DNA from: Thermoplasmata archaeon
Lineage (GTDB): Archaea > Thermoplasmatota > Thermoplasmata > Methanomassiliicoccales > Methanomethylophilaceae
Direction of reading: 5' to 3'
Assembly (NCBI GenBank): GCA_015063135.1
Contig: SUTA01000006.1
Span: forward strand, 47,529 to 111,528
DNA: 64,000 bases
The notes below the pieces were generated by a model. That model did not search any database. It was not told where the DNA came from and worked only from the letters and a program-made list of their open reading frames with translations. Shown piece after piece: positions 1 through 64,000 of the stretch; within the stretch, counting starts at the first letter, position 1; each line of letters begins with the position of its first letter. The position numbers were made by a program, and so were the translations under genes.

Positions 1-2
1 TA

Positions 3-137
3 TATGCCGACGGCACCGCCGCCGAGGTGCTGACGGCCAAGACCATCAAGGATGTGTACAACGTCGACGCGGACGTCATCGAGGTCAAGGGGCGCCCGTA
101 CGTGATATACCACAACGAGGGCGACGCGGACGAGCGA
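3..137 (+). CDS. ABC transporter ATP-binding protein, C-terminal end (5' truncated by window edge)
   Basis: Only the last 44 codons are present. Residues such as IKDVYNVDADV match the C-terminus of the two complete FecCD-type ATPases in this window, where the same IKDVYNVD and EVYGINC segments follow the ATPase core. It would energise uptake of a siderophore, cobalamin or other metal chelate. Homology stops at CGA 135-137; the frame otherwise stays open to 602, right across an opposing gene. A hairpin with arms at 149-155 and 169-175 follows. Its permease and binding protein would lie to the left of the window. Confidence 0.75.
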
Positions 138-148
138 TCCTTAACGCC

Positions 149-175
149 GAGTGCCTCCCCCGCGTCTCGGCACTC
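149..175. terminator. Hairpin between convergent genes
   Basis: A 7-bp stem, GAGTGCC at 149-155 and GGCACTC at 169-175, lies in the 60 nt between the predicted CGA end of the ABC ATPase and the predicted end of the opposing gene. The position fits a bidirectional terminator or 3'-end stabiliser. There is no strong T-tract. Confidence 0.4.
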
Positions 176-197
176 CACGGCCTGGCTATCGGCGGTT

Positions 198-533
198 TCG
201 GTAGTACCTGCGGGGATAGAATGCAGGGCAGGAGTCGATCTCCTCCTGGTCGTAGACCATGTCGATTGTGACCCTGCTGATGTACATGGACTGCACGCGG
301 GAGATGTACAGGAAATGATCGCCCACCGGAATCTTGATGTCGCTCTCCTTCGGGGGCTTGACCGATGTCGGGACGAGGGCGGGGCCCATACAGGCGGTGC
401 AGACTCTGTAGTCGCAGCCCTGCTCGATGATGAGCTTCTTCACATCGTCGTCCACGGTGATTTCCATGCCTGGGCGATGGAACGGCTTGTATATAAAAGA
501 CCCATAGCGACCCTTCTCTTTGACATAATCCAC
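198..533 (-). CDS. Hypothetical protein with a CxxC pair
   Basis: 111 aa starting with GTG at 533. An A/T-rich TATA-like stretch sits about 30 nt upstream (553-575 on this strand). The central part has VCTACMGP, a Cys pair that could bind metal or act in redox, and the rest is mixed alpha/beta with no domain I recognise. The end is placed at CGA (198-200) after the residues RRYY; reading on gives four more residues, including a second CGA, and then TAG at 186. It converges with the ABC ATPase. Function unknown. Confidence 0.6.
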
Positions 534-591
534 GCGTGTTCATTAAGTAACGGATGGCTTTTTTATTTTATATTTAAGATTATGCATTTAC

Positions 592-640
592 TTATAATAT
601 GAGAACGTCAATGTGGATGGTAATTGGATTTATCATCCAA
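592..640 (+). promoter_or_regulatory. Promoter and TTGGA-N7-TCCAA operator of the first ABC operon
   Basis: A TATA-like TTATAATAT (592-600) is followed by the inverted repeat TTGGA (624-628), 7 nt, TCCAA (636-640). The repeat ends 13 nt before the ATG at 654 and would sit at or just past the expected transcription start, a typical repressor position. The same 17-bp arrangement precedes the second binding-protein gene (26184-26200), and both are followed by GTGATACAATGGA. A metal or corrinoid-responsive repressor is a reasonable inference. Confidence 0.6.
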
Positions 641-653
641 TATGAGTGATACA

Positions 654-2035: not shown

Positions 2036-2041
2036 GCCGAT

Positions 2042-2061
2042 GCCGGCCCCTCGGGGCCGGC
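2042..2061 (+). terminator. Intercistronic GC hairpin after the binding-protein gene
   Basis: A 9-bp inverted repeat, GCCGGCCCC (2042-2050) and GGGGCCGGC (2053-2061), lies between the TGA of the binding protein and the permease start at 2080. Such a hairpin in a transporter operon can partly terminate transcription or protect the upstream mRNA, giving more binding protein than permease. The second ABC operon has a hairpin at the same place. Confidence 0.5.
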
Positions 2062-2079
2062 AAACCACTTCCCTTTACC

Positions 2080-3219: not shown

Positions 3220-3223
3220 TACC

Positions 3224-4027
3224 ATGACGGACATAGTCATCAAGGATGTGGACTTCGGGTACAGCGAGGACCGCATAGTCCTCCACGACATCAACCTGGA
3301 GATCCACGAGCCCGGGCTCTACTGCATCATCGGGCCGAACGGCGTCGGGAAATCCACCATGGTCAAGTGCGTCAGCAAGATCATAGAGCCCCTGAGGGGA
3401 CAGGTCCTGCTCGACGGGGAGGATGTCGCCAAGATGCACCACAAGGACGTCGCCAAGAAGGTCGGCTTCGTGCCGGCGTTCTCCCAGGACGCGTTCTCCA
3501 TGAGCGTCATCAACACCATCCTCATCGGGAGGTACAACCACCAGAAATGGGGGTCCCGCCAGAAGGACCTGGAGATGGTCTACAAGACCATGAAGCTGCT
3601 GCATATAGAGAACCTCGGCATGAGGAACTACAACGCCCTGTCGGCCGGTCAGCACCAGAAGGTGTCGATCGCCAGGGGATTGGTGCAGGAGCCCGCCGTC
3701 CTCATCCTGGACGAGCCCACCGCGAACCTGGACGTCAAGTATCAGGTGTACGTGATGGAGATGCTCAGGGCCATCGCCATTGAGAAGGGCATGGTGATCA
3801 TGACGATCTGCCATGACCTGAACATCACGGCGAAGTACGCCCACCAGGTCATCATGCTGGCGAGGCCCGGCAGGATCCATGCCGTGGGCCCTCCGGACGA
3901 GGTCCTCACCGAGGAGAACATCCGCGAGGTCTACGGCATCAACTGCAGGATAGTCAGGGACGAGGAGATGGACATCCCCTACATCATCCTGGGCTCCGCC
4001 ATCATGGGCGCCGCCGAGGATTACCGA
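3224..4027 (+). CDS. ABC transporter ATP-binding protein (FecE/BtuD type)
   Basis: 267 aa ATPase of the FecCD importer. Visible motifs are Walker A GPNGVGKST, signature LSAGQHQKVSIARG, Walker B VLILDEPTANLD and the switch His in TICHDLN. The family-typical C-terminus EVYGINCRIV is followed by about 20 residues and then CGA at 4025-4027. Reading through adds 60 residues encoded by GC hairpins and an A/T-rich promoter-like region up to 4207, so CGA is the likelier end. Last gene of the operon. Confidence 0.92.
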
Positions 4028-4039
4028 AACCCTTCGAAC

Positions 4040-4213: not shown

Positions 4214-4710
4214 TGGACGCGGAGATTTGGTTCAGCGATATTATCGGGAGGAACGTTGCAGGGGAGCCTCTGGAGCCGGCTCGCGAATGGGTCTCCGGGG
4301 ACTGCCGCACCGTCATAGACGGGCACACGGTCCGCGTCTACATGCGCGACAGGGTCCAGATCTTCGCCGTCAGGAGGCCGGAGGAGCTGGCCCGCAGGCT
4401 GGACCTCGGCGAGGTCCCCGAGGACCGCTGGAGGGACGAGGAGGGCAACCGCGTGTGCTACGGCAACGCCGTGCCCTACGGCCCCGACGGGCAGCCCTAC
4501 ACCTGGGGCATGGTGATCGGCAACGTGGACGGCGTGGAGAAGGCCGAGTGCTTCGAGACGGAGCAGGAGGCCAAGGGCGCCGGCGCGGAGGCTTGGGAGT
4601 CCATGTCCGAGGACGAGAAGAGGCCCAGGTACCTGCTGGTGGGCCTCATCGACCCCAGGTTCATGATAAGCAAGTCCCTCGAGCCCATGTGGTGGCCCGG
4701 AACATTCCGA
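4213..4710 (+). CDS. Hypothetical protein
   Basis: 165 aa, start ATG 4213 with GGTGAT 6 nt upstream. The protein is acidic and tryptophan-rich toward the C-terminus (EPMWWPGTF), with no transmembrane segment and no domain I recognise. The end is set at CGA 4708-4710, one base away from the mirrored end of the opposing helicase; the frame otherwise continues antisense to that gene to 4839. Function unknown. Confidence 0.65.
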
Positions 4711-4711
4711 T

Positions 4712-6583
4712 TCGCCCTGAGAAGAAAGCCCTCACGGCTGCCGGGATGTCGTCGCAAGCTTCTGCGTCCACATCCGGCAGCACGTGCACCCTCTTGTCGA
4801 AGATCGCCGCGACGCCGCGGTCGGTCTCCGACCTTATGAGCCTGCCCATGGCCTGGCGCATCTTCCTGGATGCCGGGATGTACACCGTGTACAGCGTGCC
4901 GTCGCCGGTCATGTGGTCGTAATAGCGCTGCATCGCCCTGGCCTTCGCCGTCGGCTTGGGGAACGGTATCCCGATGAGCACCGCGAGCTCCAGCGTCTTG
5001 TCGGGGAAGTCCAATCCCTCGCTGATCCTCCCGCCCGTCACGCAGAACAGCACGCCGCCCTCCGACATCCTGAACCTCTCGAAGGCGTCCATCAGCTCCG
5101 CCTGCTGCATGCCCCTGCGCTCGTAGAAGATCTCCCTGCTCAGGCGCTCCTCCAGGCCGTCCGCGATCATCCTGTCCATCATCTGATAGGACGGGAAGAA
5201 CACGGCGGTGTTGACCCTCACCGCGTTCACCGTTCCCACGACACCGTCCATGAGCATGCGGTAGTTCTCCTCGAGGAACCTCTCGTCGTACTTCATGGTG
5301 ACCTTGTCGCAGTACAGCTTCAGCAGGTTGCCCACGGGGAACTGCGATGTCATCATCAGCTTGGCGGGATCCTCCACGCCGAGCTCCCTCGCGTACTCGT
5401 CGAGGGGCGCGAGCGTGCCGGACATCAGCACGGCGGAGCGGCAGTCCCTCAACGGGCCGGCTGCGCCGGACGGGTCCATGCAGTAGGTCTGCAGCTTGTG
5501 GTTGCCCTCCTCGCCCACGATGAGCTGCACATAGGTCAGCTCGTCGGCCATGGACCAGAAGTTCAGGAAAGCGGCCAGGTGGCCGACGTATGTCCGGGGC
5601 AGCTTCCTCCTCGCCTTGCGCTTCTCCTCCACCATGGACCCGAAGTCCTCCATGGCCTTGCAGATCCTCCTGATGGCGATGGACGACACTCCGAGGCGGG
5701 TCATCAGCTCGTCCTCCAGGAAGTATGGCGGCAGGAGGCCGTCGTCGTCCATGAGATACTCCTTCCCTGCGTAGCGGATGATCTCCTCCACCACGGCTAT
5801 CACATCGGTGAGCTTGATGTCCTCGTGCATGTCGGGGTCGCCGTACTCCCTCGCCTCCTTGTCGGCGCGGGCCAGCGAGCGCATGCCGAGCTCGGCGGTC
5901 TGGACGTCCCTGAGGTAGTCGGGGAGGTTGTGGGCCTCGTCCACCACGAGGACGGTCCTGGACAGGGGCGTCCCGGTCCACTGAACGAAGTGGTCGAGGA
6001 TCTGCGGGATGAACACGAACGGGTACGGGGCGCATATGACGTCGGCCTTGGGCAACAGGAGCTTCTGCAGCTCGTAGGGGCACACCCCCTCGGCCTCGCA
6101 CCTGTCCGCGAACTCCTCGGGCCCCAGGTGCTCCGTGCGGATGACCGACTCCCAGCGGTCGAGGTCGGCCGTCTCGACGTTGTCGAAGAACGAGCAGTGC
6201 CTGCAGCCGTTGGAGTCGCGCTTCTTGTACTCGGAGCAGAGCTTCGATATCTCCTCTGGCGTCCCCGATGAGAGCTCCGGATCGTCCCTCATCAGCGGGC
6301 ACGACACCGAGGACCTGCCCTGTATCGCCACGCACAGCACATCGGCCTTGATCGCGGCGCACTCCCTGACGATCTGCTTCTGCTGCGATTTGGTCCTGGT
6401 GAGGTACACGACCTTGCACCCGGACTCCATGGCGCACGGCAGCGTGCCGCACAGGGATGTTATGGTCTTGCCGGTCCCGGTCCCCGCCTCCACGACGGCG
6501 CGCCGGGATTCCCGGACCGAACGGTCCAGGAACCCGACCAGCTCGCGCTGGCCGGGCCTGTACTGGTATGGGAAGATGTCCAT
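4712..6583 (-). CDS. XPD/DinG-family superfamily 2 helicase with Fe-S cysteines
   Basis: 623 aa DNA helicase, probably a 5'-3' repair helicase. Seen in order: Q-like start YQYRPGQRELV, Walker A EAGTGTGKT (near residue 35), a cysteine-bearing insertion (VSCPLM, KLCSEY, GCRHC, GVCPYE) as in XPD Fe-S domains, DEAH box VVDEAHNLPD, and motif VI AMGRLIRSETDRG near residue 565. The start ATG 6583 overlaps the end of the upstream DUF6015 gene (CGATG). It ends at CGA (4712-4714) after AFFSG; read-through would add 17 residues. Confidence 0.88.
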
Positions 6584-6975
6584 CGCTGGTCTTCGCCGCC
6601 CCTGCGCCAGATGTCGTCGGGGAGGTCGTCGTAGACGGACGCCTCCTCGGCCTCCTGGACGGGGGCCTCCTCCCTCTCCTCGAGGAGCTTGTTGATCCTC
6701 TCCCTCCTGAACAGCCAGTAGTGGATCCTCCACTCCCTGCCGTCGTAGAGGGTGGTCTCCTCCCTCTCGGTGGTGAGGATGCCGGCGTCCTCCAACATGT
6801 AGAAGGCGTCCCTGTCCTCGGGCTCCAGGACGTTGTCGATGATCCTGTCGGAGTACCCGAAGAAGTTCAGGACGTGGTGCGCCAGCATGTGCGCCTCCTC
6901 CTCGGCCATGTCGCGGCTCTCGTCGATGCCGTTCCTTATGGCCAGGGACAGGCTGTCCACGGTGATTATTCCCAT
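6583..6975 (-). CDS. DUF6015-like small archaeal protein
   Basis: 130 aa, ATG at 6975, 5 nt after serA's TGA. The segment with FFGYSDRIIDNVLEPEDRD and the later GREWRIHYW look like the conserved core of DUF6015, a family of unknown function in Thermoplasmata and methanogens. The C-terminus is acidic. The end at CGA (6583-6585) overlaps the helicase ATG as CGATG, the arrangement usually seen as TGATG; the frame otherwise runs to 6460 inside the helicase. The two genes are probably translationally coupled. Confidence 0.7.
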
Positions 6976-9775: not shown

Positions 9776-10761
9776 ATGCTCCAGCATCCGACGCCATCCG
9801 AAGAGGGCGCGACAACCCAGGCCAAACCGCCCCGCAACTCCAACCTGGAGATAGCCAGGATAGTCGCGATGCTGATGATAGTGACCTTCCATCAGGTGAT
9901 CTTCACCGGCGGGAAGTTCCCAGACTCCCGGACATCAGCGTCATGACATACTCGTTCGGGAGCATGCTGGGACTTGCCGGCGTCGTGGTCTTCATGCTGA
10001 TCACCGGTTACTTCATGGCCAACCAGAAGATAACCGTCACCAAGATCCTCAAGCTCCTGCTGGAGGTCTGGTTCTTCTCGATAGCCATCAGGATCTGCGG
10101 GGTGCTCTTCATGGGCGAAACCTTGGACGTGGAGTACATCAAGGACATGCTCTTCCCGATCCTGTCGGACGAGCACTGGTTCGTCAGCTCCTATCTGATA
10201 GTCGTCATCCTCTCGCCGCTGATCAACCTGTGCCTCCACCACATATCGGCCGAGGCGCACCTGATGCTGTGCATCGGCCTGCTGTTCGTCTCCTAGGGGC
10301 TGTTCTCCATCCACAACATCACCGTCGACGGGACGCCCGTGGTGTCCAAGCACCTGTCGCTGATAACGCTGTACTGCATCGGCGCGTTCATCAGCCTCCA
10401 CCCGCAGCCGATCATGAGCAGCGCGAGGACCAGCCGCGCCTTGCTGGCCTACGCGATAATAGCATCGCTGGCACTGTCCGCCGCCGTGGCGTTCCTGGTG
10501 TACGACGGGGACCTCGGATGGGGCTGGCTCCTGTAGGTCGTCGTCCTCGCCGCATTCATCGCCGGGGCGCTGCTGTGCGCGACGGCGCCCGAAGGGAAGC
10601 TCTTCGACAGGCTATTCGTGTTCGCGGTCTGCCTGTTGATAGACAAGGCGAGGATATACCTGGTGTTCAAGCCCCTCGACAAGTACCTGCAGAGGTTCTA
10701 CGACTGGACCGAGAAGGGGATCGCCAAGCTCGGCGAGAAGGCCGATGCGAGCCTCAAGCGA
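9776..10761 (+). pseudogene. Membrane acyltransferase (Acyl_transf_3-like), frameshifted and with two in-frame TAG codons
   Basis: The N-terminus NSNLEIARIVAMLMIV is typical of membrane O-acyltransferases that modify envelope sugars. The frame changes near 9920-9935 (one base missing), then continues with several hydrophobic helices (SMLGLAGVVVFMLITGYF and following). TAG occurs in frame at 10294-10296 and 10534-10536, each followed by more family-like membrane sequence. The end is CGA at 10759-10761, and L1 promoter elements come after it. The TAGs may be read as pyrrolysine, but with the frameshift this may be a decaying gene. Confidence 0.6.
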
Positions 10762-45614: not shown

Positions 45615-46211
45615 TCGGAGCCTGGTGACCAGACCATCCTTCCTTCCCGATGAAGGCGGGGTCTGCTTTTCGGGATAGCCTATGGCCAGCAGCGAGACTA
45701 TATCCCCCTCGATTCCCGATTCGAGCTTCAGCTCCTCGACCGCGTAGAGGAAATCGCCGACCCAGAGCGTGGCTATCCCGCGCTCCTGGGCCTCCAGGAC
45801 CATGTTCTCTATGAATGCGCCTATCGAGAGCACATCCACCATCTGGCGGACCGTCATGCCTCCGATATAAGGCTCCGGAGGGACAGGGAAGCGGTCCTCA
45901 TAGACGATCGCCAGCAATATCGGGGCCTCCTCCATGGCATCCATCGTTACGAGGGCGGATTTCCAATCCTTCCTCTTGGACTCGTCATCCGATGACTCCA
46001 GGTCCGACTCGATGCGCCCCCTCATGGATGCAATCGCGGAGACCCGCAGATCGCCTTCCAGCACGAACACGCGCCAGGGCTGGCGGTTCTTCGACGAGGG
46101 GGACCGCATCCCGGCCTCCAGTATCCCGTCGAGGTCATCATCGGACACCTGACGGTCCGAGAAGGAACGGGTACTCTTCCTGAGGCGGATGGCTTCGTTG
46201 CGGATGGCCAT
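45615..46211 (-). CDS. Nitroreductase-family flavoprotein
   Basis: 198 aa FMN enzyme. RKSTRSFSDRQVSDDDLDGILEAGMRSPSSKNRQPW is the FMN-binding start of the family (split here by linkers), and AQERGIATLWVGDF and AIGYPEKQ are late markers. Electron partner and substrate are unknown. ATG 46211. The end CGA (45615-45617, after VTRL) abuts the opposing gene's CGA, making the palindrome CGATCG; otherwise the frame runs 297 codons further. Confidence 0.88.
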
Positions 46212-46782: not shown

Positions 46783-47303
46783 TCCCGGTAATCATCTACG
46801 ACGAGTGCCAGTGCGACCCGAAGAAATGCACCGCGAAGCGGATGCTGAAGTTCGGGCTGGGCAAGGAGGCCAAGACCCTGGGGGCCATCCCGAAGGGCTC
46901 TATCATACTGTCCCCCTTCTCCGACAGGGCGCTCTCCCCAGCGGATGTCCAATACGCACGCAGGGGCCTCGTGGTCATGGACCTCACCTGGACCAACATC
47001 GACCAGTTCCCGCGCCCCAAGGGCATGCAGGAGCGCGCGCTCCCATACCTCCTCGCCTCCAACCCGATCAACTGGGGGAGGCCCATGGAGCTCAACTCCG
47101 CGGAGGCGGTCATGGCCGCATTGTACATCCTGGGAGAGAAGAACCAGGCCGAGGAGTTCCTCGGCAGGTTCAACTGGGCCCCGGAGTTCATGAGGCTCAA
47201 CGGGAACATGCTCGAGGATTACTCGAAGGCGGCGGATTCCACCGAAGTGGTCCGCATCCAACAGGAGTACATCGATTCCGTCGTGAACGGCGGGCAGGAG
47301 CGA
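46779..47303 (+). CDS. tsr3: Tsr3-type 16S/18S rRNA aminocarboxypropyltransferase
   Basis: 174 aa. It transfers the aminocarboxypropyl group of SAM to rRNA. Markers: YDECQCDPKKCTAKRM, LVVMDLTWTNID, LPYLLASNPINWGRP and FNWAPEFMRLNGNMLEDY. ATG overlaps the upstream TGA. The protein ends at CGA 47301-47303 after NGGQE; a 9-bp hairpin starts on the next base, so read-through would translate a terminator (ASFFEGGVGQLL). Confidence 0.92.
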
Positions 47304-47365: not shown

Positions 47366-47614
47366 ATGAACGGAGACGAGCTGCTCGGGATGATTTGGGA
47401 GGCCTTGGGCGACGACCGCGTCGGCACCTTCGAGGCCACCGACCGTCTGGAGAAGCAGTTCGGGTACAGGTGCCCGGATGACCTCGTCAAGACGCTCACC
47501 AAGTACCGCAGGGCCGGCCTGGTCAAGGGGGAGATCTCCATGGAGCTGGGCGGCTGGGTCTGGTGGGTGGACGAGGAGTGCCGTTCGAAAGCGAATCAGG
47601 AGGGGGGCGAATGA
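47366..47614 (+). CDS. Small hypothetical protein upstream of MCM
   Basis: 82 aa. A compact helical fold (MIWEALGDDRVGTFEATDRLEKQFG, LVKTLTKYRRAGLVKGEIS) suggests a winged-helix-like protein; GGWVWWVDEECRSK ends the fold. The TGA overlaps the MCM ATG, so it is co-translated with the replicative helicase and could be a partner; that is inference. Confidence 0.75.
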   Translation: MNGDELLGMIWEALGDDRVGTFEATDRLEKQFGYRCPDDLVKTLTKYRRAGLVKGEISMELGGWVWWVDEECRSKANQEGGE

Positions 47615-51043: not shown

Positions 51044-51730
51044 ATGGCTGACGAGTGCCTGATTTGCGGTGCGCCGCTGGAATACCTCGGCGAGGACATC
51101 CTGATGGAATGCGCCATATGCCGCAGGACGGCGCCGAGCAAGACCAGGTGCACGAAGGGGCATCACGTCTGCGACGGCTGCCACATGAAGGGATTGGACA
51201 CCATCCTGGAGATCTGCTTGAAGGAGGAGGGCACGGGCCCGGTGGCCATCGCCGACAGGATCATGGCATCGCCCTTCTGCCACATGCACGGCCCGGAGCA
51301 CCATGCGATCGTGGGCTCCGCCCTCCTCACCGCCTACAGGAACGCGGGCGGCGACGTGGACCTGTCCGAGGCCCTGCCCGAGATGCTTAGGAGGGGCATG
51401 GCCGTCCCCGGAGGGGCATGCGGGTTCTGGGGCGCCTGCGGGGCCGGGATAAGCGCCGGCATGTTCGTCTCTATAGCGACAGGCGCCACGCCGCTGTCGG
51501 ATTCCTCCTGGGGGCTCTCCAACAGGATGACGTCCAGGGCGCTGAGCTCCATAGGGGACGTAGGCGGCCCGAGATGCTGCAAGAGGGATTCGTACCTGGC
51601 CATCCTGTCGGCGATCGACTTCGCCCGGGAGGAGCTCGGCGTGGAGATGGCCAGACCGGAGGTGGCCTGCGCGTACTCGAGTCGCAACAGCCAGTGCATC
51701 CGCGGCAGATGCCCCTTCTGGAGGCCGCGA
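51044..51730 (+). CDS. DUF5714 metal-binding protein
   Basis: 228 aa with many Cys and His: CLICGAPL, CAICRR, CTKGHHVCDGCH, PFCHMHGPEHH, GACGFWGACGAGIS and PRCCKRDSY. The pattern matches DUF5714, sometimes fused to methyltransferases in methanogens; role unknown. Ends at CGA 51728-51730 after CPFWRP; the next bases hold the TATA box for fumarase. Confidence 0.8.
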
Positions 51731-52647: not shown

Positions 52648-53204
52648 GGAACCTCGAGACGCCTCTGTCCGAGGAGACCGTCAGGTCCCTCAGGCTCGGC
52701 GAGACCGTGTACCTCTACGGGCCCGTCATCACCGGCAGGGACGAGATGCACATCCGCGCCCTGGAGCTCGCCCACGAGGGCAAGGACGTGCCCGGGGAGA
52801 TCAGGGGGTCCGCGATCTTCCACTGCGGCCCCATCATGAGGAAGACTGAGAACGGCTGGTCCGTGGTCGCCGCCGGCCCCACCACATCGGCGCGCATGAA
52901 CAAGCTCGAGGCCGAGTTCATCGAGAGGTTCGGCATCAGGGCCGTCATCGGCAAGGGCGGCATGTCGCCCGAGGTCGCAGAGGCCATGAAGGAGAACGGA
53001 TGCGTCTACCTCGCCGCCACCGGCGGCGCCGCCATCTCCCTGGCCGAGGGCCTCGCGAGGTGCACCGGCGTGGAATGGGAGGACCTCGGCATGGCGGAGG
53101 CCATGTGGAAATTCCAGACGCAGCGCTTCGGCCCGCTCATAGTCGCGATCGACACCGAGGGCAACAGCCTCTACGATAAGGTCAACGAGAGCCTCAAGAG
53201 GCGA
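52644..53204 (+). CDS. fumB: Fumarate hydratase class I, beta subunit, apparent CTG start
   Basis: 186 aa. LRNLETPLSEETVRSL aligns with the usual start of the beta subunit; CTG 52644 overlaps the alpha TGA and no ATG, GTG or TTG is close. GPVITGRDEMH, HCGPIMRK and TTSARMNKLE are family markers. The end CGA 53202-53204 (SLKR) is one base from the mirrored end of the next gene; read-through adds 16 residues. Confidence 0.92.
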
Positions 53205-53205: not shown

Positions 53206-54081
53206 TCGCCTGCGGTACTCGTCATCCTCGTCCTGCTGGTCGAGGTCGTTGACTATCTTCAGGATGGACTTGCCCCTCCTGTTGCGGGATATGGCCACGG
53301 CGACGATGATCAGGACCACCAGGGCCAGGAAGACCCCTATCACCTCGAGGGTATGGGGAACGTCCATGCCGAAGAACAGGGTGTGGTCCTTCTCCTTCAG
53401 GACGACGGAGATCATGGGATCGGAGGTCGACACCTCCATCTTCTCGGAGTTCTGGAAGCCCTTGCAGGAGACCTCCATCTCGTATGTTCCGTGATAGGCC
53501 TGGATGTCGAAGTAGCCCCCGTCGCCCGCGGTCGTGGAGAACACCTGGCCGTCGGACGACGTGATCCTCACCTTCGCGCCCGACAGGCCCTTCTCCGACT
53601 CGCTCATCACATACCCGAAGATGTGGCCCTCGGTGAGGCCCATCCCTATGAAGGACCCTCCGTCGATGTCGCTGGTGAGGCGGTACTTGCCGTCCTCGTC
53701 GGGGATTATCCAGGAGTAGTCGAACCCGAACAGGTCGCTCTGGACCTTGGTGAAGACCGTCTCCGGCCATGTGCGGACAGTGTAGCCCTCCTTGGTGAAG
53801 GTCATCCCGTACGTCCCCTCGCCCGGCTGGTATGTGAGAACGAACCTGCCGGCGGCCCCATCGCCGGTCTCGGACATCGCGACGACGTTCCCGCGGGCGT
53901 CCACGATGCAGACCACGACGCCGTCCAGAGGGACGTTGCCCGTCTCGTTGGAGACGTCCGCGACGTACCCGTAAAGCGTCACGCTCTCCTCCACCGGCTC
54001 GTCGGCATCCGCCGCCTGGGAGACGGCTACGACGGCCAGCAAGGCCAGGAGCACTGCTGCGAGCGCAACGCGGCTGAACAT
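53206..54081 (-). CDS. Surface protein with carboxypeptidase-regulatory-like domains
   Basis: 291 aa. Signal peptide at residues 2-28 (VALAAVLLALLAVVAVSQA), two beta-sandwich repeats (TLYGYVADVSNETGNVPLDG, GHIFGYVMSESEKGLSGAKV) like CnaB/CarboxypepD_reg, and a C-terminal membrane helix with a basic stop. Probably a cell-envelope protein. ATG 54081. The end is CGA (53206-53208) after DDEYRR; TGA follows four codons later. Confidence 0.8.
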
Positions 54082-54209
54082 GCTCGCGAATCGGGTTGTC
54101 CATAGAAATATGTTATCGATTCCGAAGGGTGGGAGCAGGCATCCAACGTACATGCCCGACAACAAACGTTAAATCGGTTGTTCCCTTAGAAACCGCGACT
54201 GTGGTCCGG

Positions 54210-57200
54210 ATGATAGAGAAAGTGGATAGAAGATACTCCAAAGACGAGGTCATGGGGATGATGGAGCCGCTCATCTCCACTTGGTTCAACGAACGTTTCG
54301 ACGACCTCACCATCCCGCAGTCCATGGCCATCCCCGTCATCCACCAGAGGCGCAACGTCCTCGTATCGTCCCCCACCGGGTCGGGGAAGACCCTGACCGC
54401 CTTCACCAGCATCATCAACGAGCTCAGCAGGTACGCCCGCGAGGGCACCCTCGAGGAGAGGGTCTACTGCATCTACGTCTCGCCGCTGAAGGCCCTCGCC
54501 AACGACGTGAACCGCAACCTCAACGAGCCCCTCGCGCAGATGAGGGAGGTCGCCGCCGAGCGCGGCATGGCCATCCCCGACATCAGGGTGGCCGTGAGGT
54601 CCGGGGACACGCCCCAGGGCGAGAGGCAGAAGATGGTCCGCCATCCGCCCCACATCCTGATCACCACCCCGGAGAGCCTCGCGCTCGTCCTGGCCGCGCC
54701 GAAGTTCAAGGACGCGTTCAAGAAGGTCGAGTGGGTCATCCTGGACGAGATCCACGACATATGCGATTCCAAGAGGGGGGCGTTCCTGTCCCTCACCCTG
54801 GAGAGGCTGAGGAACCACTGCGACACCGACTTCTGCAGGATCGGCCTCTCCGCCACCCTCGCGCCCATAGAGGCCATAGCAGGGTACCTCGTCGGATGCG
54901 ACGAGCAGGGCGCCCCGAGGGATGTTGCGCTCATAGAGTCCGGCTCCAAGAAGCAGCTGGACCTGAAGGTCATCTGCCCCACCGACGACATGACGGCGCT
55001 GTCCTCGGACATCGTGAACTCCATGATGTACGACACCCTAAAGGAGCTCATCGACCAGCACGAGACCACGCTGGTCTTCACCAACACCCGCTCCGGCGCC
55101 GAGAGCGTGGTGTACAAGCTGAAGGAGAGGGGCCTCGAGAACATAGAGGTGCACCACAGCTCCCTCGGCAAGGAGATAAGGCTCGACGTCGAGGAGAGGC
55201 TGAAGCACGGCGAGATCAAGTGCGTGGTGTCCTCCACATCGCTGGAGCTCGGTATCGACATCGGGTCCGTGGACCTGGTCTGCCAGATAGGCTCCCCCAA
55301 GAGCGTCGCCAAGGGGCTCCAGAGGATAGGGAGGAGCGGCCACAGCTTCGGCAAGGTCGCCAAGGGCAGGCTGCTCGTGTTCGACCCCGACGACCTGGTG
55401 GAGTGCGCCGTCATGTGCAGGGCCGCCCACCGCGGCGACATCGACCGCGTCGGCATCCCCGAGAACTGCCTCGACGTTCTGTCGCAGACCATAGTCGGGA
55501 TGAGCCTCGACGCCAGGTGGGACGCGGACGACGCGTACAGATTGGTGAGGGGCTCGTACTGCTACAGGGACCTACCACGGAAGTCCTTCGACGACGTCCT
55601 GAAGTACCTCGGGTCCAAGGACGGGTTCGAGGGCGTGTACTCCAAGATATGGTACGACGAGGAGGAGGGGCAGTTCGGCAAGAAGAAGGGCTCCCGCATG
55701 ATCTACTTCATGAACCTCGGGACGATCCCCGAGGAGGCCAACTACAGGGTCGTCACCGGCCACGGCACGGTCGCGGGGGAGCTCTCCGAGAAGTTCGTGG
55801 AGAGACTCTCGCCCAGGGACGTCTTCGTCCTCGGCGGGAGGTCGTTCGAGTTCGTCAGGTCCAAGGGCATGACGGCCTACGTCAAGGAGGCCAACGGCAG
55901 GAAGCCCACCGTGCCGTCCTGGGCCGGGGAGATGCTCCCCAGGTCCTTCGACCTGTCCATGGACATCGCCGTCTTCAGAAGGGAGATGGAGGACCGCATC
56001 AAGCTCGACGACGCGACCGCCATCGACGGCATATCCGCGGAGTTCGACGTGGACAAGGGATCCGCCCGCAGCATACTCTCGTACTTCAGGGAGCAGGAGG
56101 CAGTAGCCGGGTTCATCCCGGACGACAGGCGCCTGGCGGTGGAGGAGTACGTGGACCCCTCCGGAAACCAGAAGCTGGTCTTCCACTTCCCGTTCGGCCG
56201 CAGGGTCAACGACGCCCTGTCCCGCGCCTACGCGTACAGGCTAACCGGCATGACCGGCTCCAACGTCTCCGTCACGATATCCGACGACAGCTTCATGCTG
56301 GGGTGCCCCAGGACCGTGGACCCCGCGATAATACCGGGGCTCATCAAGGCGGACGAGCTGGACGCCGTCCTCAGGAAGTCGCTCAAGGACTCGGAGATCT
56401 TCAAGCTCAGGTTCAGGCACACCGCCGCCCGCAGCTTCATGATCCTCAGGAACTACATGGGCAGGCCCATCTCGGTCAACAGGCAGCAGGTCAGGTCCTC
56501 CTACCTGCTGGAGACCCTCGGGAACATGGACGGGGTCCCCGTCATCGAGGAGACCTACAGGGAGGTCCTCGAGGACGACATGGACATCAAGAACGCCAAG
56601 CTCGTCCTCGACAGCATCGGCTCCGGGGAGATGAAGGTGGACGTCATCCGCTTCAGCGGCACGCCGTCCCCGTTCGCCCACTCCGCGATCCTCTCCGGCT
56701 TCTCGGACATAGTCCTCATGGAGGACAGGTCCGCACTGCTGAGGGAGCTGCACAGGAAGGTCCTGTACAGGGCGCTCGGGGACTCCGTGAAGGAGTTCGA
56801 GTTCACCGAGGACGCGGTCGTCCCGTACTACGCCCAGAAGCCCCCCAGGGTCATGTCCAAGGAGGACATCCCGAAGCTCCTGGCCGTCACAGGCCCGCTG
56901 CAAGCGTTCAGGGAGCGCGGGAGGCACATCTACACATACACCGACTTCGACAGGAAGACCGTGGACGGATGGCTCAGGGAGCTGATCCGCGACGGCACGC
57001 TGTCCACCGTCTTCATGGACGACCCCTACGTCGTCGAGACGTCCGAGGTCCCGTACTACAAGGCCGCCACCAGGAAGGAGAGGGAGCTCACCGACGTGGA
57101 CTCCGCGGTGCTCGAGAGGACGGGCGACGGCGCCACCCTCGCGGAGATCGCCGCCGACCTGGAGGTGAGCGAGGACATGGCGTTCAGGTCCCTCAGGAAG

Positions 57201-59573
57201 CTGGAGTCCATGTACCTCGTAACGCGCGTGGACGTCAGCGGCAACGGCAAGTGGACCTTCGCCCGCGTCGACATACCTGACGAGGACCGCAACGCGTCCG
57301 TCGACCGCATAGTCCTGAGGTACCTCGAGTGCTTCGCCCCGGCCACCGTGCAGGAGGTCGCGTTCGCACTGTCCCTGACCGAGGAATCCGCCAGGGCCTC
57401 GCTCGAATCCCTGACCGAGGCCGACGAGGTCTCCAAGGGGAGGTTCCTGGTCTCGGAGAGCGACCAGTACATGCTCAAGCTGGACCACATGCGCCTGAGG
57501 GCGGGAAGGGACGACGTGTACGACTACGGCACCGTCGAGAGGTACAGGCTCTCCAAGGGCGAGAGCTTCCCCGGGATCAGGGAGTTCTTCGAGTTCTACG
57601 GTTCCGCCGGATCGGAGCTCGACGTCTACCAGAGGGTGGAGGGCTTCGACCTCGACGAATGGTACTCCATGAGGGAGTCCGGGGAGCTGATGCTCGGGAG
57701 GTTCGTCAGGGGGAGGGTCAGGTACGTCCTCAGGGAGGAGGGCGACCGCTACGCCGCGCTCAGGAGGGACGAGACACAGCCGGGCGACGACGAGATACTG
57801 AACATGATAGACGGCATGGGCAAGGCCACCATGAGGCAGCTGCTGGCCGAGACGGGATGGGAGAAGGAGAGGCTCAAGGAGGCCATCATGCGCCTTGACC
57901 GCTCCCTCAAGGTCGTCCGCACATTCGAGGACCGCGAGGACTGGGGGACGGAGAACATCTACACCGTCTACAGCCCGGACGAGCCCGTCGGCGACCCGCG
58001 CGAGGAGCTGGTGGAGCGCGCGATACGCGCCTACGGCCCCATACCCGCGGCCGCCCTGAGGTTCATGGTCGACATCCCCCTCGAGGAGATCGAATCCATC
58101 GCCGAGAAGGCCGGCGCCGTGGAGATCATGGTCGGCGACGGGCACGCCAGGATGCTCGTCATGAAGGACGAGCTGCAGGCCCTCTCCGAGCCCCGCGAGG
58201 AGCAGCTGCCCGTGAGGCTGCTGTCCCTCTTCGACCCGGACCTGGGATCCAAGTGGGCCGAGATCGCAGCACGCTACGGCGACAAGTGGATCTACCCGCT
58301 GGTCCGCGGGAGCGACGTGATCGGCGCCATGGAGATCTGGGAGATGTCCGGGTGCATCGAGGTCAGGTCGATGGACCTGGACAGCCCGTCGCTGCTCCCC
58401 GAAGCGCTGGCCGCGCTCGACAAGTTCATGGGCTTCTTCAGGGCGAAGGGCACGGACATCTGCAGGATCAGGGAGGTCCTGGGGACGGACGCCGCGGAGC
58501 TGGAGGCCGATGCCGTCGGCACCCTGGAATCCAACGGTTACTGCATGGTCAACGGGTTCTACGCCAAGGGCGATTTCGTCCCGTGGACCATGAGCGAGGC
58601 GGAGGCCATATCCTACCTGTTCCGCAAACAGCGCGTGGGCAAGAGGGAGAAGTACGAGACCGCCACGGAGGCGATCTCCAAGAGGGGCTACATCCGCGGC
58701 GACCAGGAGCTCATGACCCGCGTGGCCGAGAAGACCTCCATGAAGAAGCAGATGGAGAAGGGCCGCACTGTGAAGATGATGCTGTGCCCCGCCTTCCAGG
58801 GCTACACCGACATGGACCGCGCCAAGCTGTTCAGGGCGGAGAGGGGCTTCGTCCCCGAGGGGGACCAGCTGACCATCGCCAAGCTCATCCGCGATAGGGA
58901 GCCCGTGTCCAAGAAGGACATCGTGGCCAACTCCCCGCTCAGCCTGGAGCTCACCACGGAGATCCTGTCCGAGATGTCCAGGAACGCCTACCTGTACCAG
59001 GACACCGACTCCATGTACTGCACCGTCCCGGAGCCCAGGATTTCCCAGCACGAGGCGATGCTGGAGGTCATGCGCATGCACTTCCGCGACTTCGGCATGT
59101 TCTCCGCCGAGGGGATATCCCACTTCGTCAACTCCAGGATGTCCGGCGTCCGCAGGTGCCTCAGGGAGCTGGAGGCCGAGGGGTTCGTGAAGAAGGGCTA
59201 CTTCGTCAAGGACGACCCCACCCTCAGATGGATGCTGGCCGAGGACGTCGGCAGGCCGCCTTCGAGGTTCCTGGGGTCCTTCATCCTGAACACCCAGGAC
59301 AACCTCCACCTGTACCTGAGGGACATGATCAAGAGGGAGACGGGCGGCACGAAGTCGGTGATCTTCAACGGCACCAGGATAATCGGCTCGTTCAAGGGCA
59401 AGATCTGCTCATCGGGCGTCAAGGTGGAGGAGTTCGAGGGCGACGACAGCGCCCTGCGCATCATGAGGGAGGCGGCCCAGTCCGTCGGCATGAGGCTGGA
59501 CAGCGCCCGCCAGCGCGAGGACGACGACTGGGATGTGTCCGAATTCTACACCAGGACCAACCCCGGCGCACGA
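54210..59573 (+). CDS. lhr: Very long Lhr-type superfamily 2 helicase
   Basis: 1787 aa, about twice Lhr-core. Motifs in the first 450 residues: SSPTGSGKTLTAF (I), YVSPLKALAND (Ia), TPESLA (Ib), DEIHDI (II), GLSATL (III), LVFTNTRSG (IV), STSLELGIDIG (V), QRIGRSGH (VI). Then come the Lhr winged-helix and beta domains, and a long C-terminal part of repeated winged-helix-like units. ATG 54210 (MIEKVDRR). Ends at CGA 59571-59573 after TNPGA; the next gene's TATA follows at once. I found no other in-frame CGA in 1787 codons. Probably acts in DNA repair. Confidence 0.92.
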
Positions 59574-59607
59574 TGGGATTTAATAAGCGTTAAGGGATGC
59601 ATCAAGC

Positions 59608-60000: not shown

Positions 60001-60001
60001 A

Positions 60002-60799
60002 TCGCTCGATGAAGTCCGCGTGGTACAGGAACTCCTGGGCGTAGCCAGCATACCTGCCGAACCTCCTCATCCCGTACTCCGACACGGCGGAGTAGCTCCC
60101 TGTCACGCCGTACCTCTCCTCCATGACCCTCTTTATGCGGGCGTCCACCGGGAACGCGTTCAGATGCCCATAGCCGAATATAGCGACGCAGTCGGCCACC
60201 TTGGGCCCGACGCCGTTGATCCCCATGAGGGCCTCGACGCAGCCGCGGTAATCCAGGGACCTCATGCCCTCGGGGTCGATCTCGCCGTCCTCCACGCGCT
60301 GCGCCAGCTCGATGAAGCGGGCCTCCCTGTATCCGAGCCTGCACTCCCCTATGCACTCCTTCCCGTCGAGGATCTGCCTGGGCTCCGGGAAGGCATGCCT
60401 GCCCCCGAGGTCCGTACCGAAATGGTCGCAGACCGACTCCACCATCTTCCCTATGCGGGCGACGTTGGCGTTGGTGGCGAGGACGTAGGTTGCGAGGCAT
60501 TCCCACGGCTCCTGCCTCAGGATCCTGAGCCCGGGGCAGCGCGATGCCAGCGATGCGACGTAGGGGTCGGCGGCGGATATCTCCGAGATGATCCCGTCCA
60601 GGTCGTCGTCCCCGCCCAGGTACCTCCTGACGTAGGACGCCCTGTCGGTCCCCTCGACCTCTATGCCGCCCTCGGCGTGCCTCATGCGGACTATCTCGCT
60701 GCCGAGGACGCCCTCCCACCATTCCCCGGTCTTGCGCCAGCGGTGGGCCTGACCGCAGCCCAGGGTGGGGTCCAGGGAGACGTCGAGGTCGATGATCAT
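60002..60799 (-). CDS. ogg: 8-oxoguanine DNA glycosylase (OGG1-like)
   Basis: 265 aa HhH-GPD glycosylase/lyase. The hairpin GINGVGPKVADCVAIFGYG contains the catalytic Lys, and NAFPVDARIKRVM the catalytic Asp. The N-terminal DPTLGCGQAHRWRKTG resembles OGG1. ATG 60799. The end is CGA (60002-60004) after HADFIE; TGA follows six codons on. Confidence 0.9.
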
Positions 60800-60899
60800 G
60801 GATGGCTGAACAGATGGGAAAAATATTTCCTATTTTCGAATCCGAGCGGGCATAATCGTGTTATATGTCCAGACCATCCTCCATCCGAGGCATGCACAC

Positions 60900-61811
60900 A
60901 TGGACAGGCGCACCCAGGGCGAGATAGCGGTCGTTGCAGCAGCGCTGCTCTGGGGGTTCGCCGGATTCTTCTCCAGGGGCCTCAACGACCTCGGCCTCAC
61001 GTCGCTTCAGATAACCGCCTGCAGGATGACCGTCAGCACCATCGTGCTGGGGGCGTTCATGCTGATGATGCGCCGCGGGGACTTCAGGGCCTCCCCCAGG
61101 ATGCTCCTGCTGTTCCTGGTCTTCGGCATCGTGAGGATCGGCAGCGACTTCGCCCTGTTCAGCGCCATGGAGACCGTCACCCTGTCGGTGGCGAGCGTCC
61201 TGCAGATGACGGCGCCGTTCTACGTCATGGCGATATCCTTCCTGTGCTTCGGCGAGAGGATCACGAAGATGAAGGCGGCGGCGCTGCTGGTCGCGTTCTT
61301 CGGATGCGTGCTGGTGACGGACGTGCTGTTCGCGGACGTCTCCGACCTCACCGGCGTGGCCCTGGGCGCGATATCCGGCGCGTGCTACGGCGGGTTCGTG
61401 GCCGGGACCAAGTACTGCGACATGAAGGGCGCATCCCCCGTGTCCTTCGTGTTCTACACCGCCGCGTTCGCCATGGTCCTGCTGTTCCCGATCACCGACG
61501 CCCCGCACGTCATCGAGGTCACCTTCTCGGGCTGGGAGCCGTTCCTTTACGTCCTGGGCGTGGGCCTGATGATAACCCTGGTCCCGTACAGCCTCCAGGC
61601 CTGGGCCCTGAAGTACCTTGACGCGGGCATAGCATCCGTCCTGGGAGTGACGGAGGCGGTGTTCGCCGCCATAGTGGGCTACTTCGTGTTCTCGGAGTCC
61701 ATGTCGGCTCTCAACATCGCCGGGATGGCCCTCGTGTTCCTGTCGATAGCCATGCTCAACGCCGGGGCGCTGAGGTTCTTCGCCAGGCGCCGGAGCAGCC
61801 ACCGCAATCGA
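60900..61811 (+). CDS. EamA/DMT-family transporter
   Basis: 303 aa with ten membrane helices in two EamA repeats (AVVAAALLWGFAGFFSRG and LGAISGACYGGFVAGTKY); drug/metabolite exporter of unknown substrate. ATG 60900 follows TTATATG. The basic tail ends at CGA 61809-61811 (SSHRN); read-through would carry the frame 250 codons through the next gene. Confidence 0.88.
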
Positions 61812-61839
61812 ATAATACGCAGAATCCATGCCGCGTCGC

Positions 61840-62649
61840 ATGAGGTTCGGACCCGCGGGATACCCCTCGGCAGGCAAGACGCCGGAGGGCTCATTGGAAT
61901 ACACCAGGCAGCTCGGCCTGGACGCCCTGGAGGTGGAGTTCGTCCGCGGGGCCAGGATCAAGCCCGAGAGGGCCCAGGAGATCGGGAGGAAGGCGAAGGA
62001 GCTGGACATCAGGCTCAGCTGCCACGCCCCGTACTTCGTGAGCTTCAACTCCGACAACTCCGAGACCAAGGAGAAGAGCATCTCGTGGGTCACCGACACC
62101 GCGAAGGCTGCGCACAACCTTGGGGCGTACATCATCGTAATCCATGCCGCCTCCTACGGGAAGACCCCGGAGACCGCGCTGCCCAACGTCATCGCGGGGA
62201 TGCAGAAGTGCAAGGACGTCCTGGACGACGAGGGGGTGAAGGACGTGATCCTCGGCATCGAGACCATGGGCAAGCTGGGGCAGTTCGGGACCCTCGACGA
62301 AATCGCCAAGGTCATGGACGAGGTGGACGGGGTGCGCCCCGTCCTGGACGTGGCTCACGTCCACGCCCGCGGCCACGGATGGCTGAAGACCAAGGACGAC
62401 ATGCAGTCGCTCATAGACCAGTTCTTCCCCCTGTGCGGCGACATAGCGCACTTCCACATCAGCTGCATCAACTACGGCGACAAGGGGGAGATCAACCACC
62501 TGCCCCTGGAGACGAAGGACCCCGACCTGCAGATGCTGGCGGACATCCTGGACGATTCTAGGCAGGAGTGCACGTTCATCTGCGAGTCGCCGCTCATAGA
62601 GAAGGACGCCGTGGTGTTCAGGGACATGTTCCCCACCTACAGGAGGCGA
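61840..62649 (+). CDS. Endonuclease IV-like TIM-barrel protein
   Basis: 269 aa. MRFGPAGYPSAGKTPEGSLEY, LSCHAPYFVSF, VIHAASYGK, LGIETMGKLGQFG and LDVAHVHARG contain the metal ligands of AP endonuclease IV-like proteins. ATG 61840 fits the TATA at 61811-61818; ATG 61828 is also in frame. Ends at CGA 62647-62649 (FPTYRR), 4 nt before the next ATG. Confidence 0.88.
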
Positions 62650-62653
62650 TGTC

Positions 62654-63121
62654 ATGGGTTTGTTCAAAAGGGAGAAGAAGAACGGCATGTCCGTAAACGA
62701 GGGCATGGCCGCCGCGCTGGCGAACGGCAAGAGGCCGTTCGAGATCAGGGAGGAGGGAGGATTCACCGTGCAGGGCATGGGGGACGACCTCCCGATGCTC
62801 ATGGAGGCCGAGGCCGACGACGCATTCATCCACTACCTGATCCACCTGGACATCCAGACCAGCGGATGGCGCATGGAAGACCTGTACATGGAGCTGAACC
62901 GCCTTAACATGAGGGTCCCGTTCGGGAACTTCATCGTGGACGGGGAAGCAGAGGAGATGGAGGTCCTTTTCCGCTACGACTACCCCCACCTGAACAACAG
63001 CGACCCCAAGGCCATCGGCGACCTCACCGACCTGATGTTCGACATAGTCGACAGGCACGACGGAGACCTCAAGAAACTGGCCGAGGCCGTCCCCGATGTT
63101 CCCGACAGCATGTACGGGCGA
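62654..63121 (+). CDS. YbjN-like hypothetical protein
   Basis: 155 aa. The segment MEDLYMELNRLNMRVPFGNFIVDGE followed by VLFRYDYP resembles the YbjN/TY3K-type alpha-beta fold, whose role is unclear. ATG 62654, co-transcribed with the TIM-barrel gene. CGA 63119-63121 (DSMYG) is taken as the end by analogy; TGA at 63155-63157 gives 167 aa, and here I cannot tell which is right. Confidence 0.65.
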
Positions 63122-63226
63122 GACAAGCCCAGCGGTCTAGCCTCCGTGAAGTGCTGAATGGTTACGCACCATTAACTATGGCTTGCGGATGAATCGCCTG
63201 CCGCAATCACTGCGGCGGTGATATCT

Positions 63227-63898
63227 ATGGACACAAACATAGAAGATAGGTGTACCCAGAACCCTCTGAAAAGAAACCTGAAGGATAGCGTTTTCTCTGA
63301 CCTATTCTCTGAGGAGTGGTATGCATCGAACCTTGCCAGGGAGCTCGTGCCGGAGATCCCCGATGGCACCCCTGTTAAGGTGAGCAATGCTGGAAGCGTG
63401 ATGTCGCCTGGTCCGATCCACGACCTGGTTCTGATAGCCGGCGACTACGCCATAGTCGCCGTGGAGGCCCAGTCCACCAAGAACCCGAACATGCCCATGA
63501 GGATTCTGCTCTACGAGTTCGACATCCTAGCGCCCATGCTCCACGGACCGAGGAGGGAACTGCTCTCCGGAGCCCATGCAAAGATGCCGATGGTGCTCGC
63601 TTTCGTGATCTACACGGGAAGCGGTGAAGTGCCTGAGGTGATGCGCCTCTCCGACTGCTACCCAGACCGTCCTCCAGCCGACACTGGGATGGAACTCACC
63701 GTCAAGGTTATCCACGCAAGCAACGCACCAAAAGGCTCCAAAGTCAGTGAGTACATTAGACTCTGCCAGTTGGCAGACGGATGCAGGAAGGAAGCGAAGG
63801 GAGACATGGAACTGTATGCTCGCCTCCTGAAGGAAAGGAGCGAGAAGGCAAATATACTCCAGGAGTACCTAAGACGTGAATTCGGCACTTCATCCTGA
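63227..63898 (+). CDS. Rpn/PD-(D/E)XK-like protein
   Basis: 223 aa. GPIHDLVLIAGDYAIVAVEAQS (Asp and Glu spaced as in PD-(D/E)XK) and MPMRILLYEF match the Rpn/transposase-like nuclease family found in variable genomic regions. ATG 63227 has GGTGAT 8 nt upstream. The gene uses more A/T-ending codons than its neighbours and may be mobile. Ends in TGA; it has no in-frame CGA. Confidence 0.75.
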   Translation: MDTNIEDRCTQNPLKRNLKDSVFSDLFSEEWYASNLARELVPEIPDGTPVKVSNAGSVMSPGPIHDLVLIAGDYAIVAVEAQSTKNPNMPMRILLYEFDILAPMLHGPRRELLSGAHAKMPMVLAFVIYTGSGEVPEVMRLSDCYPDRPPADTGMELTVKVIHASNAPKGSKVSEYIRLCQLADGCRKEAKGDMELYARLLKERSEKANILQEYLRREFGTSS

Positions 63899-63959
63899 TT
63901 ATTCGCGCCCAGTCGATAGCCTCCGCTGCCCGTAACCTCGGTTTGCCCCTGCTTTTGCA

Positions 63960-64000
63960 TCGATTGATCAGGCGATCGATGTCCAATCCCAGCGCCCGGA
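63960..64000 (-). CDS. Possible 3' end of a gene running off the right edge
   Basis: On the minus strand the frame RALGLDIDRLIN is followed by CGA at 63960-63962. It converges with the Rpn-like gene after a 61-nt gap. Only 13 codons are visible, so this is a weak call that rests on the CGA pattern. Confidence 0.25.

Follow-up and report, generated by a model that had tools for sequence, protein, structure and literature searches.

CGA as a likely stop codon in an archaeon related to the Methanomassiliicoccales

Introduction

Changes of a sense codon into a stop codon seem, in the literature searched, to be known from mitochondria and one plastid group alone. Here we describe the use of the codon CGA at gene ends in a stretch of 64,000 nucleotides, hereafter called the window (G000:C28:47529-111528; contig SUTA01000006.1 of assembly GCA_015063135.1), from the draft metagenome-assembled genome (MAG) of a Thermoplasmata archaeon, together with the tRNA genes and the release factor aRF1 of that genome. 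As read from these sequences, CGA is very likely a true stop codon, probably through loss of the tRNA that reads it combined with an aRF1 that accepts C or U before GA.

In the mitochondria of Sphaeropleales, UCA (and UCG) are reported to act as stops: the former sense codons serve as terminators and do not occur inside genes, no cognate tRNA gene is reported for UCG, and the codon-reading region of the release factor carries a unique mutation (PMC6821328). That system is organellar, has a release factor of the bacterial RF1a type and uses codons which start with U (PMC6821328). The archaeon, in contrast, has a cellular genome, a factor of the aRF1/eRF1 type, a codon which starts with C and, by extrapolation, hundreds of genes concerned. 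The AGA and AGG stops of vertebrate mitochondria concern few genes. These too are former arginine codons that act as terminators, through the specialised paralogue mtRF1a, in a system that differs in being organellar and in having a separate release-factor paralogue (PMC12574857). In peDinoflagellate plastids (UUA and UCA stops) and Marsupiomonadales mitochondria (UUA/UUG), also organelles, the new stops can end over half of the genes, the cognate tRNAs are missing, the release factor is altered and reading the codons as sense produces false gene fusions; the plastid UUA/UCA change has been called the first known sense-to-stop change outside mitochondria (PMC12574857).

Rarefied CGN arginine codons have been reassigned in Absconditabacteria (CGA/CGG to tryptophan) and in Firmicutes (CGG changes, with tRNA-Arg(UCG) missing), but these are sense-to-sense changes in low-GC genomes (PMC8629427), unlike the sense-to-stop change proposed here at approximately 61 % GC. 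The Codetta screen of bacteria and archaea reported changed amino-acid assignments for AGG, CGA and CGG (PMC8629427); Codetta is described as unable to detect sense-to-stop changes (PMC9825746), so more cases may be hidden. No archaeal or bacterial CGA stop was found in the titles and abstract openings of the literature searched, which did not include most subscription papers or any preprints, and as far as that literature shows a sense-to-stop change is new for a cellular genome and for the aRF1/eRF1 family, as is a stop beginning with C.

Results

The genome and the gene-end scan

The genome that holds the window comprises 1,860,562 bases in 40 contigs (approximately 61 % GC) and is 87.5 % complete and 0.05 % contaminated. 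Matches of its aRF1 protein in named genomes come from MAGs labelled Methanomethylophilaceae, Methanomassiliicoccaceae or Thermoplasmata archaeon, a large share of them obtained from rumen or gut, with 86 % identity for the best full-length match and 87 % for a partial one; on the evidence of this protein the archaeon is therefore related to methanogens in the order Methanomassiliicoccales.

Coding potential was calculated from codon usage with CGA, TAA, TAG and TGA all scored zero, because circularity was to be avoided, so that the scan was blind to stops. It covered 587 kb of this genome, including the window, and 400 kb of a congener, G014, with equal training. A segment end was called sharp when the first candidate codon lay at most 10 codons before and at most 8 codons after it.

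CGA at gene ends

The 480 coding segments in the 587 kb had 386 sharp ends, with CGA at 184, TGA at 179, TAA at 21 and TAG at 2, compared with TGA at 231, TAA at 13, CGA at 11 and TAG at 2 of the 257 sharp ends in G014 (Fisher p = 4e-37 for the CGA share, 184/386 vs 11/257). Among triplets found near segment ends, CGA stood apart here (208, against 55 CAA, 86 AGA and 69 CGG; n = 480) and was unremarkable in G014 (38 CGA, 32 CAA, 52 AGA and 67 CGG; n = 322).

In the window, the first terminator-like codon of the 59 complete coding segments was CGA in 31, TGA in 25, TAG in 2 and TAA in 1, and CGA marked 27 of the 51 sharp ends. The original prediction, made from the letters of the window, had counted 36 of 69 gene ends at CGA, which is about right, and all 13 of the positions that it named are CGA on the strand given. 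Four CGA ends lie more than 8 codons past the segment end (39670, 42461, 45615(-) and 51730). Six convergent gene pairs end in CGA on both strands, their terminal codons lying next to each other or separated by one base (4710/4712, 19660/19661, 30181/30182, 45614/45615, 53204/53206 and 60000/60002), 45615(-) being one of the less sharp ends. The segment ending at 35447(-) may truly end at an upstream TGA at 35516 and was left out of the following list, in which rows rest on the blind scan unless another basis is named, and distances are to the next standard stop.

135..137, plus strand: CGA named in the original prediction; the codon alone was checked, the gene starting before the window and outside the segment table
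198..200, minus strand: CGA terminator of a coding segment, offset -1 codon from the segment end
4025..4027, plus strand: CGA terminator from the original prediction; coding score 9.4 before and 0.2 after it, the scan having fused the gene with the next same-frame stretch
4708..4710, plus strand: CGA terminator, 43 codons
4712..4714, minus strand: CGA terminator of the convergent gene 4712-6499(-)
6583..6585, minus strand: CGA terminator
10759..10761, plus strand: CGA terminator
19658..19660, plus strand: CGA terminator, 94 codons; a weak Pfam match (below cut-off) stops before it
19661..19663, minus strand: CGA terminator of a convergent gene, 183 codons
22840..22842, minus strand: CGA terminator of an ABC-transporter ATPase, blind scan and family match; translation table 11 would fuse it to a same-frame radical-SAM gene
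23616..23618, minus strand: CGA terminator
27013..27015, plus strand: CGA terminator
30179..30181, plus strand: CGA terminator of a sugar-1-phosphate nucleotidylyltransferase, blind scan and family match, 442 codons
30182..30184, minus strand: CGA terminator of a convergent glycosyltransferase, blind scan and family match, 175 codons
32817..32819, plus strand: CGA terminator
34417..34419, plus strand: CGA terminator, 368 codons
35534..35536, plus strand: CGA terminator of an Rce1-like gene, blind scan and family match, 377 codons
38191..38193, plus strand: CGA terminator
39668..39670, plus strand: CGA terminator of an AAA_14/DUF4143 gene, blind scan and family match, 27 codons past the segment end
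42459..42461, plus strand: probable CGA terminator, 26 codons past the segment end
42898..42900, minus strand: CGA terminator
45612..45614, plus strand: CGA terminator
45615..45617, minus strand: probable CGA terminator of a convergent gene, 15 codons past the segment end
47301..47303, plus strand: CGA terminator
47611..49698, plus strand: gene named MCM in the original prediction, ending in TGA and without internal CGA; a control within the window
51728..51730, plus strand: probable CGA terminator, 18 codons past the segment end
53202..53204, plus strand: CGA terminator
53206..53208, minus strand: CGA terminator of a convergent gene
54126..59573, plus strand: Lhr helicase frame, in which neither CGA nor a standard stop occurs over 1815 codons before the last, with 161 CGA in the other two frames
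59571..59573, plus strand: CGA terminator of Lhr, at the homologous TGA stop of G014, 157 codons
59998..60000, plus strand: CGA terminator
60002..60004, minus strand: CGA terminator of a convergent gene
61809..61811, plus strand: CGA terminator of an EamA transporter, blind scan and family match, 250 codons
62647..62649, plus strand: CGA terminator of an AP-endonuclease-2-like gene, blind scan and family match

CGA at the ends of homologous genes

From the G014 stretches, 367 open reading frames (ORFs) were taken, of which 99 had a tblastn match in the sampled DNA of this genome and 73 gave pairs within the identity and coverage limits. The 43 pairs in which differences peak at codon position 3 were kept; many of the 30 dropped are probably antisense shadow frames. 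Forty-one of the kept pairs reach the end of the gene, which is CGA in 22, TGA in 17 and TAA in 2 in this genome, and TGA in 39, TAA in 1 and TAG in 1 in G014. All 22 CGA ends correspond to TGA in G014, 18 of them at offset 0 and the others at -10, -3, +1 and +2 codons, so the expectation of the original prediction that CGA would fall at homologue C-termini was borne out on the sampled DNA. Without the filter, CGA stood at 31 of 58 ends.

The 13,099 aligned codons of the orthologues contained five interior CGA, all within the first 75 residues of the ORFs as delimited, and probably ahead of the true starts as judged from the sequences. At these five G014 has Arg (three), Gly and Glu, never Trp, and a sense-to-sense change to tryptophan of the Absconditabacteria type was rejected.

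When ten window frames were read through CGA with table 11, eight gave clear Pfam or NCBIfam matches, one a weak match below the cut-off and one none, and none of the matches listed for these frames spans the CGA. In the frame ending at 22840(-), the match before the CGA is a near-complete ABC ATPase, and the in-frame sequence beyond it encodes a radical-SAM domain unrelated to that protein.

CGA behaves like TGA

In the first segmentation, the mean coding score per codon fell from 0.344 to -0.621 across CGA ends (n = 189) and from 0.379 to -0.675 across TGA ends (n = 182). Across interior CGC it was 0.396 before and 0.392 after (n = 2210), and it likewise hardly dropped across CGG, AGA and CGT. 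An A precedes the codon (ATGA or ACGA) at 47 of the 182 TGA ends, compared with 10 of the 189 CGA ends, and a coding segment in the frame of the ATG lies close behind 27 of the 47 ATGA ends but only 34 of the 135 other TGA ends. Ends without the preceding A have mostly moved to CGA (179 CGA vs 135 TGA). TGA thus tends to be retained at ends whose T is shared with an ATG, a pattern to be expected were T and C interchangeable elsewhere.

The shift from TGA to CGA is confined to the stop frame. The TGA:CGA ratio in coding frame 2 is 4361:2213 here and 2873:1839 in G014, and in coding frame 3 it is 787:10874 here and 754:6955 in G014.

CGA inside genes

The original prediction had reported no internal CGA in the genes for Lhr, MCM, DP1 and an Rpn-like protein (its own names, of which Lhr alone was checked by family search). 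None of the four has CGA in frame before its last codon, and CGA occurs 161, 61, 42 and 13 times, respectively, in their two other frames. The absence is real but not special to this genome: interior CGA was found at 15 of 149,848 codons here and at 8 of 93,831 in G014. An apparent 7-fold depletion relative to G014 was a product of unequal training of the coding models; equal training gives like rates. Interior TGA occurred 18 times here, and coding signal was present on both sides of 6 of these 18 TGA and of 1 of the 15 CGA.

Two of the eight interior CGA in G014 look real by context, in aRF1 and in a gene which we take, from its sequence, to encode an L18e-like ribosomal protein. The aRF1 codon specifies an arginine that follows the N of the NIKS motif by 20 residues and is CGA in all 22 congeners with a readable aRF1 (L061 and 21 further loci), which thus use CGA as sense there; the preceding codon ends in T in 22 of 22, the next codon is CTC, CTA or CTT, and none of the remaining 473 arginine codons in these genes is CGA. 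Nineteen similar named aRF1 loci, largely of the same genomes, have the same pattern. In this genome the site is CGC (position 78 of L073). In the L18e gene (L287-L308), CGA (TGG CGA GAY) is present in 18 of the 19 congeners read, G001 having CGT; two more congeners were not readable and nine genomes gave no match. The other 113 arginine codons of the congener L18e genes include no CGA, and the site is CGT here. In aRF1 genes from outside the genus, CGA is a codon like any other, accounting for 56 of 671 arginine codons in 27 genes.

tRNA-Arg(UCG)

The Rfam tRNA model found 43 tRNA loci in this genome, 43 each in the relatives G014, G028 and G007, and 42 in G015; a tRNA scan and an Rfam scan of the window itself gave no match. 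Among the 42 anticodons that ARAGORN read from the 43 loci, those for Arg were tct, cct, gcg and ccg, and tcg was not found; Ala, Val, Thr and Gly are each represented by all three of their anticodons. Under the usual archaeal wobble rules none of these four Arg tRNAs reads CGA. The tRNA-Arg(tcg) gene is present in both relatives checked, G014 and G007, and that of G014, used as query, has a match of at least 81 % in 18 of the 31 genomes of the genus (the present one counted among the 31). Its sole match in this genome was tRNA-Arg(GCG), at 76 %, which is identical to the tRNA-Arg(GCG) of G014. A subclade of the genus that would also be without tRNA-Arg(UCG) was considered and proved wrong for the one member checked, G007, whose tRNA is present and diverged in sequence.

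The orthologues of the genes that flank tRNA-Arg(UCG) in G014 lie approximately 9.4 kb apart on contig C25 of this genome, with no tRNA-Arg(UCG) between them. The absence that the original prediction had pointed to was thus observed both among the anticodons read and at the syntenic place. A pattern of anticodon and T arm gave no match either, although it also misses the known gene of G014, so this blank adds little. Gene order around the site is rearranged (G000:C25:95400-104800 compared with G014:C1 near 1766428), with several genes between the former neighbours of the tRNA, one of them presumably glutamine-synthetase-like.

The release factor aRF1

The genome has one full aRF1 gene and a weaker paralogue match, which is also seen in relatives. 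The CGA that ends this gene lies at the homologous C-terminus, and translation with table 11 would lengthen the frame by 63 codons, the CGA included. Compared with 49 relatives, the protein has 11 unique residues, nine in variable columns and two, adjacent to each other, in otherwise conserved columns: K to N (K in 49 of 49 relatives) and N to H (39 N, 10 A), so that the motif is NIKSKTTMNHV here and NIKSKTTMKNV in relatives. In an ungapped alignment with human eRF1 (NIKSRVNRLSV) these changes are K69N and N70H. Of the codon-reading regions singled out in the original prediction, NIKS and YxCxxxF are themselves unchanged, and the altered pair comes 5-6 residues downstream of the S in NIKS.

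Position 69 is K in 245 of 247 aRF1 rows (duplicates included), the exceptions being this genome and P0001, a sequence from the same species that heads a cluster of 13, is one residue off this genome's aRF1 and reads through CGA. P0001 lies on a contig of 5,243 bases, and the aRF1 of this genome on one of 89,868 bases. The archaeal factors of solved structure, 4af1 and 3agk, carry R at 68 and lack K at 69. Position 68 is M in this genus, which leaves K69 as the one basic residue of the pair; in the present genome the pair is M and N, neither of them basic. Judged from the aligned sequences, position 68 or 69 is basic in all compared aRF1 proteins but this one. NIKS occupies positions 61-64, and position 70 is among the class-specific sites proposed for stop recognition (PMC4698671). 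In reported simulations Arg68 braces the NIKS loop, and its loss lowers the penalty for C at position 1 from approximately 6 to 1-2 kcal/mol (PMC5681627).

Other genomes with CGA stops were sought through aRF1 only, plus the full scan in G014. The readable aRF1 genes of relatives (7 of 80 named loci were not readable) end in TGA, TAA or TAG, and none ends in CGA. The aRF1 of G031 (L078/L121, same family) has CGA directly before its TAG and another CGA inside the gene; CGA is probably sense there. The aRF1 of G001 (L075) has NIRS for NIKS, an unusual replacement of the lysine that reads the first base, keeps the internal CGA and ends in TGA.

Discussion

Four marks of a sense-to-stop change are seen in this genome: CGA stands at homologous gene ends, it is not used inside genes, its cognate tRNA was not found and the release factor is altered. 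The standard archaeal code, with CGA read as Arg by tRNA-Arg(UCG), was rejected, since the tRNA was not found and CGA stands at gene ends. The first explanation in the original prediction, reassignment with tRNA loss and recognition by the release factor, fits the tRNA result and the unique changes in aRF1.

In the mechanism that we propose, K69N and N70H would loosen the NIKS loop so that C is tolerated at position 1, aRF1 would take U or C at position 1 before GA, and translation would end at CGA, where no tRNA competes. CAA and CAG would stay glutamine codons through competition from tRNA-Gln(ttg) and tRNA-Gln(ctg), both of which are present; CAG is common and CAA rare in this genome and in G014. 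A further stop at CAA was considered and rejected, as this codon is not avoided inside genes and has no peak at their ends. T-to-C changes would have turned TGA stops into CGA over time, more seldom at those whose T is also part of a downstream ATG, and the resulting code would have UGA, CGA and UAA as stops.

Several observations weigh against this account. All of the evidence is DNA sequence, from which we infer termination at CGA, and the assembly is 87.5 % complete, so that a relocated tRNA-Arg(UCG) could be missing from it; the assembly yielded no 16S rRNA gene, and hence no decoding site. That genes lack internal CGA carries no weight either way, G014 being equal in this. In aRF1, NIKS, which reads position 1, is intact, and nine further residues are unique too, though in variable columns; that the changes at 69 and 70 loosen the reading of position 1 is again something we infer. 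The simulations that bear on it concern R68A of human eRF1 and predict that discrimination against C is lost in general (PMC5681627), yet usage of CAA and CAG is alike in this genome and G014. P0001, the other sequence without K69, may come from the same sample as this genome.

Editing of the terminal CGA to UGA in mRNA, by C-to-U change, would leave the same pattern in the DNA, and deaminase domains of the PF00383 type are encoded (two matches). The 30 relatives, however, have 0 to 2 matches to PF00383, the sole deaminase family searched, so there is no gain in it; apart from a preference for T at the base after the codon (44 %) and a scarcity of A and T before it, the CGA ends share no fixed flanking motif; hundreds of sites would have to be edited; and editing would require neither the loss of tRNA-Arg(UCG) nor the changes in aRF1. 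We consider this route improbable. An equally slim chance is given to CGA being simply unassigned, in which case the ribosome would stall at a codon with no tRNA and be rescued, or released slowly, without dedicated recognition by aRF1. No tRNA for CGA was found, and eRF1 is reported to end translation at rare stalling codons, in part even with a mutated NIKS (PMC6755126), but CGA is as frequent as TGA at gene ends (184 vs 179), which would be costly for an inefficient signal, and aRF1 has its unique double change beside the loop that reads the first base. A sequencing or assembly artefact that turned the T of TGA into C, as the original prediction had also considered and as a single draft MAG might allow, is contradicted and can practically be dismissed, since a T-to-C error is blind to frame and the stop frame alone is shifted, frames 2 and 3 being alike in both genomes, while TGA stops are still present, more commonly at sites whose T an ATG can share, the tRNA and aRF1 changes agree with reassignment, and P0001, a one-residue aRF1 variant on another contig, reads through CGA as well.

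As for the origin of CGA as a stop, the counts within the genus suggest that the lineage probably went through near-extinction of CGA inside genes, and tRNA loss would therefore have been cheap and a code change tolerable. The CGA conserved in the aRF1 of congeners might reflect autoregulation by weak termination, an attractive guess by analogy with bacterial prfB, which is reported to be autoregulated by weak termination at UGA (PMC12421855, PMC13245932). A CGA is conserved in L18e too, so autoregulation cannot be the whole account. A more far-reaching scenario, which we regard as rather doubtful, sees here the first cellular genome with a sense-to-stop change, with YGA as the signal that its aRF1 accepts, and derives the change from a prior control signal: CGA, left in the genus almost exclusively at fixed sites, would have let the factor sense its own level through weak termination at the aRF1 site, and this species would then have dropped both signal and tRNA, whereupon CGA became a general stop.

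If CGA is indeed a stop, a sense-to-stop change is possible at genome scale (approximately 1.9 Mb, with about half of the genes ending in CGA), and the first stop letter, an invariant U for eRF1-type factors, can change. The aRF1 described here would then be a natural variant for testing how eRF1 and aRF1 read position 1, and a possible route would lead from near-extinction of the codon through tRNA loss to release-factor change, with living relatives at an earlier step. Annotation of this genome with table 11 would extend or fuse many proteins.

UAG rarely serves as a stop, marking 2 of the 386 sharp ends, and 12 of 20 interior TAG are flanked by coding signal on either side. A PylS match of 267.8 bits is present at C18:72418 and, together with UAG inside genes, indicates at the sequence level that UAG is used for pyrrolysine. 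In-frame TAG inside genes was observed in the window at 10294, 10534 and 14774 and in the stretches of C8, C18, C25 and C29, and some of these sites look like what we take to be the pyrrolysine positions of methylamine methyltransferases. Pyrrolysine is reported from the order Methanomassiliicoccales (PMC4153887, PMC3941956).

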